From: Polyangium mundeleinium
Lineage (GTDB): Bacteria > Myxococcota_A > Polyangia > Polyangiales > Polyangiaceae
Assembly: GCF_028369105.1 (NCBI RefSeq)
Contig: NZ_JAQNDO010000001.1
Location: 372,001-436,000, forward strand
Direction of reading: 5' to 3'
DNA length: 64,000 nucleotides
In this document: positions 56,526 through 62,625 of the stretch, one piece after another
Numbering within the stretch: the stretch's first letter is position 1
Layout: each line of letters starts with the position of its first letter
Made by a program: the position numbers and the translations under genes
Notes under the pieces: model-generated
Told to the model about the DNA's origin: nothing
Database searches by the model: none
The model's input: the letters and a program-made list of their open reading frames with translations, nothing else

Positions 56526-59500
56526 ATGCCCGCGTATGCCGGTCCGCTCACGCCCGTCGAGGCGCCCCTCGTGCCGCTCGGCCTCGTGCCGCTCGTGCCT
56601 CTGCTCGCCGCGATCGTCGTGGCCCTCTTCGGCGCGCGGATGGGGCGACGCCGTGCGACGCACCTCGGCCTCGGCGCGACGCTCCTCGCGCTCGGGCTCG
56701 CCCTCGCCGACGCCGCGCGCCTCGCCTCGCTCGAACCTGCGCGCCGCGCGCTCTTCGACGTGGCCTTCCGCCTCGTGCGTATCGGCTCGCTCGACGCGAA
56801 CGCCTCGTTTTCCCTCGACCCGCTCGGCGCGGGCTTCCTCCTCACGGCGCTCCTCGTCGTCACGATCGTGCACGTCGCCGCGTGGAAGCGCCTCGACGAC
56901 GATCGCGCGGCGATTCGGTTCACCGCGACCGCTTCGCTCTTTTCGTCCGGCCTCTCGCTCGTCGCGCTCGCGGCCGATGCGATCGTGTGGCTCTTCGGCT
57001 GGGGCGCCGTCGTCCTCGCGACGGGCCTCTTCGTGGTGCAGGGCAAGAGCTCGCAGCCTGCCGCGTCCGCGGGCATGCGCGCGGGCGTCGTGGCGAGCCT
57101 CAGCGGCGCTGCGATCGTCTCCGGCCTCGTCTTCCTGTTCTGGGGTCTCGGCGGCGCGTGGCTCGACGAGGGCCGTTTCCTCGCGGATTCCCGCGCGCGC
57201 TTCGTCCCGGTGTATGCCGAGGGGCGGATTCCTGCCGAAGCGACGCTCGCCGAGGACGTCGAACGCCCGCGGGGCGAGCGTGACGTGAAGATCGTCGCCG
57301 AGCGCGCGGAGAAGCGCGGATTCCTCACGCTCACGAGCCACCCGGGCGCGCGTGTGTACGTCGGCGTCTCCGACCGCGCGCAGCTCGCGCAGAATCCCGT
57401 TCCCTTTGCGGTCGCACCCTTCGTGCGCCGGGAAATCGCGGCGGGCCCGCATTCGATCGTCATCGCGCCGGGCGGCGGCGCCACGGTCACGGGGGATGGC
57501 TTCGAGGTCGCCTGGATCGAGGGCCTCGTCGTCCCCGAGGGCGAGGAGGTTCGCATCACGCCGCTCGGCCCCACGGTCGCGTTTCGCGAGATCCACGATC
57601 AGCTCGTGATCCGCGACGAGGCGGGGCGCCAGAGCGTCACGCGCTCGCTCCTCGGCAAGCTCGGCGCAGGCTCGATTGGCCTCGTCACCCTCGCGTGCCT
57701 CCTGCTCTTTGCTGGCGCGGCTGCGACGAGCGCGACCTTTCCCTTCTCCGCCTGGCTTCCGAGCGCTGCGGCGTCTCTCTCGCCCCCTGCGCTCGCGCTC
57801 GTCCTCGGCCTCGCGCTCGCGCCTGGGCCGCTCCTCCTCGTGCGCCTCTCCGATCTCTTCACGTTGAGCCCCATGGCCGCCGGCGTCGTCACCATCTTCG
57901 GCGCGTTCTCGGCCGTGCTCGCGGCGCTTCGTGCCGCGCTCGAACCACGAAACCCCCATCGCCTCGTGTACGGCACGCTCGCCGCCACGGCCCTCGCCTT
58001 CGTCGCGGTGGGCCTCGACGAGCCTGCTTTCGCCGTCGTCCTTCTCTCCCTCCATGCGCTCGTGCGCGCGGCGACGTGCTTGCGAACGACCGAGCGCGCC
58101 GAGACGCGACCTGCGAAGACGCTCGCCTTCCCCGGCGCGCGTCTCCTCCTCGAAGGCACCGGCACGAAGCGCGGCGAGGCCCTCTTCGAGGTGGCCAACA
58201 CGATCGCGCGGGGCGCCTCGAAGCTCGTCTCCGCGATCGACGACCTCGTCCTCGGCCTGCCCGCGCGCCTCTTCGAGCGCCTCTTCTCCCTCTTCGCCGC
58301 GCTCGTCATCCTCGGCCTCGCCGCTCCGGCCTTCGCGGACGAGCCTGCGGGCCGCGCCGTCCTTCGCCCCGAGTTCGGCGGCGATCACGTCGAGCTCACC
58401 CTCGCGCCCGACGGCGAGCACATGACGGGCGCGTTTTTCCTCCGCAACGAAGGCCCCGGCCCGCTCGAGCTCTCGCGTGTCGACGTCCGCACCTCGGCGA
58501 ACGATCCACGCCTCCCGCCCGGCATCACCGTCGCCGTCGAAGGCCCGCACGCCTCCACGCGTATTCCGCCGGGCCAGGAGCGCCGCGTCACCATCCGCTG
58601 GCGGTACGAATCCGCTCGCGCCCGCGAGCTCTACGGCCAGGTCCTCGTCGAATCGAACGCCCGCGCCGGCGACGGCGCCGAACCTGGCCGCCCCCTCGCC
58701 CTCGCCATCCACGCCGAACGACCGCTCGGCCTCGGCTTCCTTGGCCGCACGCCGCTCTCCGTCGTCGTCTTTTTCCCTCTCCTCGGCACGCTCCTCGCGC
58801 TCCTCCTCCGCGTCACGCGCCGCGACAGCCCACGCCTCCTCGCCGCGACGAGCGCCCTCGTCCACGGCTCGCTCCTCGTCTTCGTCGCCTGGCTCTGCGT
58901 CCGGTTCGACCGCGCCTTCAGCCGCGCCGACGGCAACGACGGCTTCCAGCTCATCGAACGCGGCCGCCTCTTCCCTTCGCTCGGCGTCGAATACTTCCTC
59001 GGCGTCGACGGCATCTCCCTCGCGCTCGTCGCGGCGGCCGTCCTCCTCGCCTTCGTCGCCTCGATCGCCAGCGCCAGCTTGCGCGACCGCGCGGCCACCT
59101 ACCACGCCCTCGCCGGCGTCTTCCTCACGGCCTCGCTCGGCGTCCTCGTCTCGCTCGACCTCTTCCTGTTCTGCGCCTTCTGGCTCCTCGCCCTCCTCCC
59201 CACGAGCCTCCTCGTCGCGCGCCGCGGCGGCTCTGGCCCGCGCCGCGCCGCGGCCCGTGTCCTCGTCTCGTCCCTGATCGGCGCCGCGCTCCTCTGCGCT
59301 GCGTCCTGGTTCCTCTGGCAACACGCAGACCCCACGTACCTCGCGACCGGCGAATCCGTCCGCCGCTCCGCCGCAATCCCGGAGCTCGCGCGTGTGGCCT
59401 GGGTCGAAAAGGGCCTCGCGATGGGCGGGTTTTCGGCCGTGAAGGTCCTCTGGACCGCGCTCTTCGCCGCCTTTGCGCTCCGCATGTCTGCGTTCCCGTT

Positions 59501-60362
59501 CCCCGGGTACCTCGCGGACATGCATACCGAGACCGACGCGCCGACGAGCGTGCTTCTCTCGGGCGCGCTGCTCTCGACGGGCGTGTACGGCATTCTGCGC
59601 CTCAACGTGGGCGTCTTGCCGGACGGCATGCGCTGGGCGGCGACGACGATCTCGATCCTCGGCGCGGCGGGCATCCTGGTCTCCGCGCTCGCGGCGATCG
59701 CGCAGGACGACCTCAAGCGGTTCTTGGCGCGCATTGCCGGTGCACACGGCGGGATCACGCTCCTCGGGATTGGATCGCTCACGCCGCAGGGATTCGAGGC
59801 GAGCGTCGTGGTGGCGGCGACGCACGGCGTGATCCTCGGCCTGCTCTTCGTGCTCGTGTCGGTCCTGGAATCGCGCGTCCAGACACGGGACCTCGGGCGA
59901 TTCGGCGGCCTCTCGCGGGAGATGCCGCTCTTCGCGACGCTCTTTGGCCTCGGCATGCTCGCGTCCCTCGGATTGCCGCTGCTCGCGGGCTTTTGGGGAC
60001 CGCTGCTCGCGCTTTGGGGCGCGTTCGCCCGGGAGCGGGCGGTGGGCGCCTTCGGGGCGATCGGAATCGTGACGCTCGCGGCGGTGCACATCTTCGCGAT
60101 GGGGCACCTTCTCTTTGGCGAGGCCCGCGAGGAGTGGCCGACGAGCAAGTACCTGGAGCCGTTCGGCGGCAAGTTCCCCGCGATGTACAGGCGTGAGCTC
60201 GCGGCGGCGCTGCCGCTCGCGATTGGATTGGTGCTGCTCGGCGTGGCGCCGCGGCCGCTCCTTGGCATGGTGGATCAGGCGTGCCTCGGAATGCACAGGC
60301 TCGTGGATCGACCCGGGCCTCTGCAGATTGCGTCGACGGAGCAGCCCCGTGGGCTCGTCTGA
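56526..60362 (+). CDS. NuoL-like/NuoM-like fusion membrane protein lacking proton-channel residues
   Basis: A 1278-residue protein unlike a normal complex I subunit. Residues 1-530 form a NuoL/Mrp-type antiporter fold in which the TM5 Glu is Gly (FGWGAVV, residue 160) and the TM7 Lys is Thr (ATSATFPFSAWLPSA, about 401), with a PEGA-like loop at about 265-350. At 585-605 lies FSLFAALVILGLAAPAFADE, like a signal peptide with an AxA site, followed by a beta-sandwich (about 610-735). Residues 740-1278 are NuoM-like (VEYFLGVDGISLALV; DLKRFLARIAGAHGGITLLG), yet the TM5 Glu is Leu887, the TM7 Lys Arg986 and the TM8 Lys Ser1017. It is therefore unlikely to pump protons in the usual way. No other nuo gene is nearby. 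hsdM begins 3 bases after the stop. Confidence 0.82.
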   Translation: MPAYAGPLTPVEAPLVPLGLVPLVPLLAAIVVALFGARMGRRRATHLGLGATLLALGLALADAARLASLEPARRALFDVAFRLVRIGSLDANASFSLDPLGAGFLLTALLVVTIVHVAAWKRLDDDRAAIRFTATASLFSSGLSLVALAADAIVWLFGWGAVVLATGLFVVQGKSSQPAASAGMRAGVVASLSGAAIVSGLVFLFWGLGGAWLDEGRFLADSRARFVPVYAEGRIPAEATLAEDVERPRGERDVKIVAERAEKRGFLTLTSHPGARVYVGVSDRAQLAQNPVPFAVAPFVRREIAAGPHSIVIAPGGGATVTGDGFEVAWIEGLVVPEGEEVRITPLGPTVAFREIHDQLVIRDEAGRQSVTRSLLGKLGAGSIGLVTLACLLLFAGAAATSATFPFSAWLPSAAASLSPPALALVLGLALAPGPLLLVRLSDLFTLSPMAAGVVTIFGAFSAVLAALRAALEPRNPHRLVYGTLAATALAFVAVGLDEPAFAVVLLSLHALVRAATCLRTTERAETRPAKTLAFPGARLLLEGTGTKRGEALFEVANTIARGASKLVSAIDDLVLGLPARLFERLFSLFAALVILGLAAPAFADEPAGRAVLRPEFGGDHVELTLAPDGEHMTGAFFLRNEGPGPLELSRVDVRTSANDPRLPPGITVAVEGPHASTRIPPGQERRVTIRWRYESARARELYGQVLVESNARAGDGAEPGRPLALAIHAERPLGLGFLGRTPLSVVVFFPLLGTLLALLLRVTRRDSPRLLAATSALVHGSLLVFVAWLCVRFDRAFSRADGNDGFQLIERGRLFPSLGVEYFLGVDGISLALVAAAVLLAFVASIASASLRDRAATYHALAGVFLTASLGVLVSLDLFLFCAFWLLALLPTSLLVARRGGSGPRRAAARVLVSSLIGAALLCAASWFLWQHADPTYLATGESVRRSAAIPELARVAWVEKGLAMGGFSAVKVLWTALFAAFALRMSAFPFPGYLADMHTETDAPTSVLLSGALLSTGVYGILRLNVGVLPDGMRWAATTISILGAAGILVSALAAIAQDDLKRFLARIAGAHGGITLLGIGSLTPQGFEASVVVAATHGVILGLLFVLVSVLESRVQTRDLGRFGGLSREMPLFATLFGLGMLASLGLPLLAGFWGPLLALWGAFARERAVGAFGAIGIVTLAAVHIFAMGHLLFGEAREEWPTSKYLEPFGGKFPAMYRRELAAALPLAIGLVLLGVAPRPLLGMVDQACLGMHRLVDRPGPLQIASTEQPRGLV

Positions 60363-60365
60363 GCG

Positions 60366-61938
<1,573 letters not shown>

Positions 61939-61946
<8 letters not shown>

Positions 61947-62625
61947 GCCGTATTTGATCTGCCCGAAAAGCTGGCGCCGGAGCACGCTGGAGCCGGACGG
62001 GGAGTTGATCGCGCGCGTCGACAGCGGCGGGACCCCGAGCACGTCCGTCGACGCCTACTGGGACGGCGACCTCCCCTGGCTCACGCCGAAAGAAATCACG
62101 AGCCTGGAGGACGGCGTCTTCGTCTCGCGCACGGAGCGCTCGATCACGCAGCTCGGCCTGGAAAACTCCTCGGCGAAGCTCTTGCCCCCGGGGACCGTGA
62201 TGCTGAGCAAACGCGCGCCCGTCGGGGCCGTCGCCGTGAACGCCGTCCCGATGGCCACGAACCAGGGGTTTTTGAACTTTCGCTGCGGCCCGGCCTTACG
62301 ACCGCTTTACCTCGCGTATTGGCTGCGCGCGAACCGGCCTTACCTCGACAAGGTCGCGAATGGCTCGACGTACCCGGAGCTTTACCAGAGCGACCTCTTC
62401 GAATTCGAGCTCGCCGTGCCCCCGCTTTCCGTCCAGGATCGTATCATCGAGGTCCTGAGCGCCCTCCAATTCGCTTCGCTCCTCGGCCTCCCGCTCGAAC
62501 AATCCGTCACGCGCCCCGAGGCGATGGTCGCGCTCCAGGAGCAAAACCGACGCCTTTCGAGCATCCGCGACGCGCTCCTCCCGCTGCTCCTCTCGGGCGC
62601 GCTCGACGTATCCAAGAAAGCGTGA
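61939..62625 (+). CDS. hsdS: half-size HsdS specificity subunit (one TRD)
   Basis: DNA specificity subunit of the type I system, only 228 residues where standard HsdS has about 400 and two target-recognition domains. It has one TRD (about residues 10-165; [60 protein letters not shown]) and one conserved helix ([20 protein letters not shown]). Half-subunits are known to pair as dimers and to recognise palindromic sites. The GTG start overlaps hsdM by 8 bases. The gene could be whole as it stands: there is no frameshift remnant of a second TRD, as the next gene is unrelated. Confidence 0.88.

Follow-up and report, generated by a model that had tools for sequence, protein, structure and literature searches.

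The closest described relatives of the gene analysed here are antiporter-like subunits of membrane complexes. NuoL and NuoM of complex I (NDH-1) are nearest, MrpA and MrpD of the Na+/H+ antiporter share the antiporter fold, and in DabB of the DabA-DabB system a NuoL-like fold is put to non-respiratory use. The gene, which we refer to as LM, lies in a 64,000-nucleotide stretch (the window) of the genome of the soil myxobacterium Polyangium mundeleinium and joins a NuoL-like and a NuoM-like half in one chain. It shares with nuoL and nuoM the PF00361 family, the L-then-M order, the NuoM core motifs and an orthologous locus in relatives, but differs in that the pump Glu and Lys are lost in both halves, the L half is truncated, the halves are joined, domains have been added, a second nuoD is missing, and the gene is not encoded with other nuo genes. 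Solved Mrp chains match the fusion less strongly than NuoM, which gives its best matches, and no mrp genes occur among the flanking frames scanned; likewise, no DabA gene (PF10070) is adjacent, the DabA of this genome being part of another cluster. We propose, with a probability of about 0.5, that the fusion is a membrane remnant that no longer pumps and has been retained for the domains it presents to the envelope, most likely as part of a scaffold of NuoH, NuoL and NuoM (H-L-M) that works through periplasmic domains.

Loss of the pump residues is well supported. The roles and importance of E144, K234/K229, K265, K399 and E407 in antiporter-like subunits are described in PMC9271201 and PMC3046159. 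Alignment to NuoL and NuoM of Escherichia coli K-12 shows E144 and K229 of NuoL and E144, K234 and K265 of NuoM to be replaced by the residues that an earlier note, made from the sequence alone, had named (Table 1). In addition, E407 of NuoM is a proline, K173 of NuoM is replaced by Arg, and D178 and H254 of NuoL are lost. The fusion does not have the residue set of a functional complex I (Glu of transmembrane helix (TM) 5, Lys of TM7, Lys/His of TM8, Lys/Glu of TM12), which rules out a normal pump, as the note had argued.

The joining of the two subunits, also claimed there, is borne out by the translation, by Pfam (Proton_antipo_M, PF00361: 6e-49, in two stretches) and by solved chains, with NuoM aligning to residues 744-1252 (E 3e-42) and NuoL to about residues 385-518. 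Proton_antipo_N reaches 4e-4 only and fails that family's cut-off. What the note had not described is the truncation of the NuoL half, an added domain in each half, Pro1159, and a partner encoded elsewhere. The NuoL half ends near residue 350 of E. coli NuoL (alignment, by eye) and so lacks TM12-16 together with the helix of K399 and the lateral one; the junction seems to keep a piece resembling the C-terminal end of canonical NuoL. The insert between TM6 and TM7, which canonical NuoL of the second complex I (see below) also carries, has no Pfam match at E<=1; a PEGA-like impression gained by eye found no Pfam support and is not claimed. Ahead of the NuoM half lies a probable immunoglobulin (Ig)-like domain, modelled alone by AlphaFold2 with a mean predicted local distance difference test (pLDDT) score of 65. 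Its best Foldseek matches are adaptin-ear/GAE and Ig-like folds (best E 7e-3, none at E<=0.001), and Pfam DUF1573/HYDIN stays far under the cut-off. The usual topology of NuoL and NuoM would place both added domains in the periplasm.

The presumed partner is a second, degenerate NuoH in the window genome (G000; contig C1, about 11.946 Mb), with one copy in each of five congeners (G001-G005) too. A lipoprotein-type signal opens the protein, PDZ is matched at E 1.7e-8 and NuoH at E 1.1e-39, and the NADHdh (PF00146) match covers nearly the whole model. While NADHdh is shared with NuoH of complex I, this protein is a predicted lipoprotein with PDZ, and in its degenerate form the quinone-site residues are largely lost: the Polyangium copy (L100) holds 3/9 tested residues, canonical rows 9/9. 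The same layout with 9/9 tested NuoH residues is found in G010, G023 and G027. At E<=1 a PDZ family and NADHdh were each found in 14/14 aligned PDZ-NuoH proteins, and the lipobox Cys is invariant in all 14, whereas the quinone-site residues vary. Some copies have a NuoH membrane part that is hardly recognisable and a PDZ region that still is. Since PDZ persists even where the protein has changed most, the simplest reading is that the function resides in the added domains. Across 140 genomes sampled from the phylum, listed matches that begin no later than position 30 of the model are confined to the order of the window; the match of G187, of the same class, starts at position 192, and the other listed matches from outside the order start near 210 or later. 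The lipoprotein-PDZ NuoH therefore looks specific to Polyangiales.

Some further observations concern this protein. Very degenerate PDZ-NuoH with several hydrophobic segments occurs in other families of the order (L188, L189, L190, L191, L192, L196); in L188 and L191, which were scanned, PDZ is present and NADHdh has no match at E<=0.01. Downstream of the degenerate NuoH (L100:5839-8780) lie a 589-aa protein and a trypsin-like protease (PF13365); genes like these are also found after NuoH in G036 (L104) and the canonical G023 (L112). A TIG-like appearance of the NuoH N-terminus by eye lacked Pfam support and is not claimed.

Both proteins are widespread in the order. Matches to the N-terminal part of PDZ-NuoH were found in at least 90 of 144 genomes, 75 of them over most of the protein and 15 N-terminal only; most of the 11 fetched loci of these 15 show weak further NuoH matches. 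Ig-type NuoM is present in at least 40 of the 144, and all 40 are among the 90 listed PDZ-NuoH genomes (Fisher 1e-10, uncorrected for kinship). The matches listed reach down to about E 4e-40 for PDZ-NuoH and about 3e-100 for Ig-type NuoM, beyond which weaker NuoM copies exist, for example in G006 and G022 (L135, L136). Thirteen genomes have H, L and M as separate genes side by side, in this order (L049, L054, L066, L124, L168-L172, L174-L176, L178; L124 and L166 are one contig and counted once). In two more, H is followed by a fused LM (L048, G050) or by a long M gene (L177, G146). This gene order suggests that H and LM bind each other.

Beside H or H-L-M, atp genes (atpG, atpA and others, by eye) are found at L049, L056, L065, L105, L124, L169, L172, L173 and L183, and several of these loci border a manC-like gene at their opposite end. 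For these nine loci an ATP synthase link was weighed and rejected: most of the genes point towards each other where the loci were viewed, and the block looks like inherited synteny.

Residue tallies are bimodal, with no intermediate rows. Canonical copies hold 9/9 tested residues in H (4 rows with E. coli), 8/8 in L (13 rows) and 7/7 in M (15 rows); degenerate copies hold 0-5/9 (30 rows), 0-3/8 (22 rows) and 0-4/7 (24 rows), respectively. These tallies exclude near-copies (L057-L060, L101, L120-L123, L126-L129, L166), loci of the first complex or other antiporters (L062, L064, L115, L125, L130-L134, L137, L138, L140, L142-L145), the contig-split L067 and L068, L135 and L136, and frames under the score or length limits. 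A later check found NuoM of the excluded L057-L060, L135 and L136 to be degenerate as well. Pump-residue loss also occurs in unfused nuoL-nuoM pairs of many relatives. The idea of a repurposed fold put forward in the earlier note stands in part: a scaffold is reasonable and a passive channel possible, but the fusion as such is not the key.

A passive or gated ion channel, in which the antiporter folds would keep a water path and tune membrane potential or pH without pumping, is unlikely, although it fares best among the alternatives. The NuoM fold is retained, as are the positions of Arg986, H322 and H348 in Polyangium, but 10/24 degenerate NuoM rows hold 0/7 tested residues, and the Polyangium NuoL half is without about a third of the fold.

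The origin of the fusion can be read from its orthologues. It is present in all five congeners with 77-94% identity (94% in P. fumosum DSM 14668 and 86-89% in three other Polyangium strains, all within G002-G005), and the start codon position is common to 6/6 copies. In many other family members the halves are separate adjacent genes, followed in canonical ones by nuoN. Flanking genes, some named by eye, are shared by loci in which nuoL-nuoM replaces the fusion: five of those tested in G023 (glpK, cyclase, accA, oxidoreductase, GTPase), five in G036 (cyclase, accA, oxidoreductase, phosphatase, GTPase), three in G034 (accA, phosphatase, GTPase) and three in G008 (phosphatase, GTPase, sigma factor). 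The unfused same-locus copies of G008, G023 and G034 hold every tested residue, pump residues included; those of G036 are degenerate. Since flanks are shared and canonical unfused copies occupy the same locus, it was from canonical nuoL-nuoM genes at this very site that the fusion arose.

The canonical locus of G008, G023 and G034, with separate nuoL-nuoM-nuoN, belongs to a second complex I; NuoH and NuoD are each present there in a second copy. Directly upstream of L-M, nuoI and nuoK are found in G019, G020, G021 and G027, with nuoJ confirmed in G021 and G027, and these neighbours mark the canonical form as complex I. It is well supported that the fusion is a remnant of the nuoL-nuoM genes of this second complex. 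In a set of 59 genomes, the nine with canonical L-M-N (G008, G010, G019, G020, G021, G023, G027, G028, G034) have a second NuoD; it is of one E-value class and lies away from the other nuoH types. One NuoD each is found in G000-G005, G007, G011, G015, G022, G024, G030, G032, G033, G036, G050 and G055. That of G000 lies inside the canonical operon of the first complex I, and LM has no NuoD of its own. Further NuoD are present in G018, G025, G031, G035, G043 and G056, which have degenerate H, with NuoH on the same contig except in G018; read without a tree, those of G025, G031, G035, G043 and G056 probably belong to another complex. The many matches of the low-complexity query degM_54 were disregarded.

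In the NuoM tree, Polyangium and G036 group together (96/95); next to this group stand the nine canonical copies and a further 21 degenerate copies on a branch of their own. All degenerate copies fall to the same side of one branch (support 78/82), but the approximately unbiased test does not reject two origins (p-AU 0.35). The NuoH tree is broadly similar, with low basal support. An L-M fusion is also found in G050 (L048) and perhaps in G146 (L177), where the 1022-aa frame after H has a clear M part and an unclear L part. Neither genome falls on the branch of Polyangium in the NuoM tree. In the loci seen, no relative has the fusion beside a full nuo operon, an arrangement that would have spoken against repurposing.

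The fused gene is kept rather than broken. Its frame is intact in 6/6 Polyangium genomes examined, and its ratio of non-synonymous to synonymous substitutions (dN/dS; pairwise, by simple counting, rough because of high-GC codon bias) is 0.22-0.37, as compared with 0.08-0.33 for degenerate H and 0.06-0.45 for NuoL/M/N of the canonical set in these genomes. Neighbouring genes served as yardsticks (AccA 0.12-0.18 in three pairs, HsdM 0.17-0.21, a PAS-STAS protein 0.35-0.50). Constraint on LM is real but weaker, which is compatible with a scaffold or with slow decay. We regard the latter, a slowly decaying leftover of little function, as rather improbable and place it after the channel. Faster change than in canonical NuoL/M/N, the truncated NuoL half and the missing second NuoD accord with decay, but a frame of 1278 codons has stayed open in all six genomes, dN/dS of H goes down to 0.08, and retention is wide across the order. 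Stops were flagged in some distant matches; when read per locus, the NuoM frames of G006, G035, G135 and G147 are uninterrupted. Intact frames and wide retention together favour function over decay.

A third possibility, that LM provides the canonical complex I of its own genome, or some redox partner as yet unknown, with an accessory or alternative L/M block, has a poor chance. It would fit the strong NuoM homology and the presence of a canonical nuo set (L063, L115) whose nuoH is in two frames. That set, the first complex I, is however located elsewhere and has its own NuoL, NuoM and NuoN with all tested residues (L063), whereas the remnant H, L and M are without most quinone and pump residues. 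The absence of other complex I genes near the fusion, stated in the note, holds for the nine flanking frames scanned; about 300 kb separate it from the closest NuoD and NuoH detected in this genome. The two frames of the canonical nuoH (L115:11386-12455, C1 about 128.4-129.5 kb) correspond to one 600-aa frame in the five congeners, and the split in G000 is possibly an assembly error.

In other bacteria DabA has NuoL-like proteins as partners, and the window genome has a DabA cluster (L062), but for LM the role of a DabB-like subunit in an inorganic carbon transporter is very improbable, as this DabA lies in another cluster with antiporter-like genes of its own and no DabA occurs among the flanking frames scanned. 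The cluster itself is an enlarged inorganic-carbon-transporter-like one, with DabA (PF10070, E 3e-248) amid four antiporter-like NuoL/M genes (L062:8182-18857, C1 about 9.816-9.827 Mb). An Mrp-like cluster, recognised by eye, lies elsewhere in the genome (L064).

We return to the H-L-M scaffold. The second complex I carries extra domains on NuoH (lipoprotein signal and PDZ), NuoL (insert) and NuoM (Ig-like); Polyangium and many relatives have lost quinone and proton-pumping residues, and Polyangium the second NuoD as well. NuoH, NuoL and NuoM persist, most likely as a membrane body that anchors and arranges the added domains, with these doing the periplasmic work; scaffolding would then be the function of H-L-M. 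Several points weigh against this. H322 and H348 of NuoM are kept and Arg986 is conservative, preserving the charge of K234. H and LM are about 11.5 Mb apart in Polyangium (contig coordinates); H occurs in the same genome as the fusion but is not adjacent to L and M there, and a shared complex is deduced from relatives. The periplasmic placement comes from topology reasoning, the AlphaFold2 model of residues 1-1200 (7-row alignment) having a pLDDT of 36 and being unusable. The co-occurrence counts are not phylogenetically independent, and the 90 genomes with PDZ-NuoH include at most 50 without a listed Ig-type NuoM. The search of Polyangium for other subunits of the second complex covered NuoD, not A, B, C, G, I, J or K. 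Finally, protein identity of 76-94% for LM against 95-99% for canonical NuoL/M/N fits weakened constraint too.

Table 1. Features of the LM gene and its product, in window coordinates.
Feature	Position	Strand	Basis
NuoL-NuoM fusion protein, 1278 aa	56526..60362	+	Translation without inner stop; intact orthologues in G001-G005
NuoL-like half, residues 1-520, about 11 TM helices	56526..58085	+	Alignment and hydropathy, by eye; helix count estimated
Gly160, position of NuoL TM5 Glu144	57003..57005	+	Alignment
NuoL-half insert, residues 213-372, between TM6 and TM7, predicted periplasmic	57162..57641	+	Alignment
Thr401, position of NuoL TM7 Lys229	57726..57728	+	Alignment
Junction, residues 521-585	58086..58280	+	Read by eye
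Hydrophobic segment, residues 586-604	58281..58337	+	Equivalent of the signal-like start of separate NuoM genes
Beta-rich, probably Ig-like domain, residues about 610-742, ahead of NuoM half, predicted periplasmic	58353..58751	+	AlphaFold2, Foldseek
NuoM-like half, residues 743-1250	58752..60275	+	Pfam and solved-chain matches
Leu887, position of NuoM Glu144	59184..59186	+	Alignment
Arg986, position of NuoM Lys234	59481..59483	+	Alignment
Ser1017, position of NuoM Lys265	59574..59576	+	Alignment
Pro1159, position of NuoM Glu407 (TM12)	60000..60002	+	Alignment

Next to the fusion (window 60366-62625), hsdM (N6_Mtase) begins 3 nt past the stop codon of LM, with hsdS (Methylase_S) after it; the frames scanned showed no hsdR. 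The order LM-hsdM is found in 5/6 Polyangium genomes, the exception being G001 (L055).

With the terms used, a search of one open-access library listed nothing, by title or abstract, on a myxobacterial NuoL/NuoM fusion or PDZ-NuoH, and a term search of the main text of PMC12361115 found neither 'Myxococc' nor 'Polyang'. Complex I is usually seen as a pump that is either kept or lost. Tentatively, and at somewhat below even odds, we posit that Polyangiales hold a widespread 'pseudo-complex I', an H-L-M body without redox or pumping chemistry that would serve as an envelope machine by means of the lipoprotein, PDZ and Ig-like domains it bears on the outside. If this is true, membrane-arm parts that outlive the pump and quinone residues would represent a new fate for a respiratory complex, and a natural experiment separating the structural from the pumping parts of the membrane arm. 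As canonical and degenerate forms occupy the same locus in related genera, the two may be compared directly.

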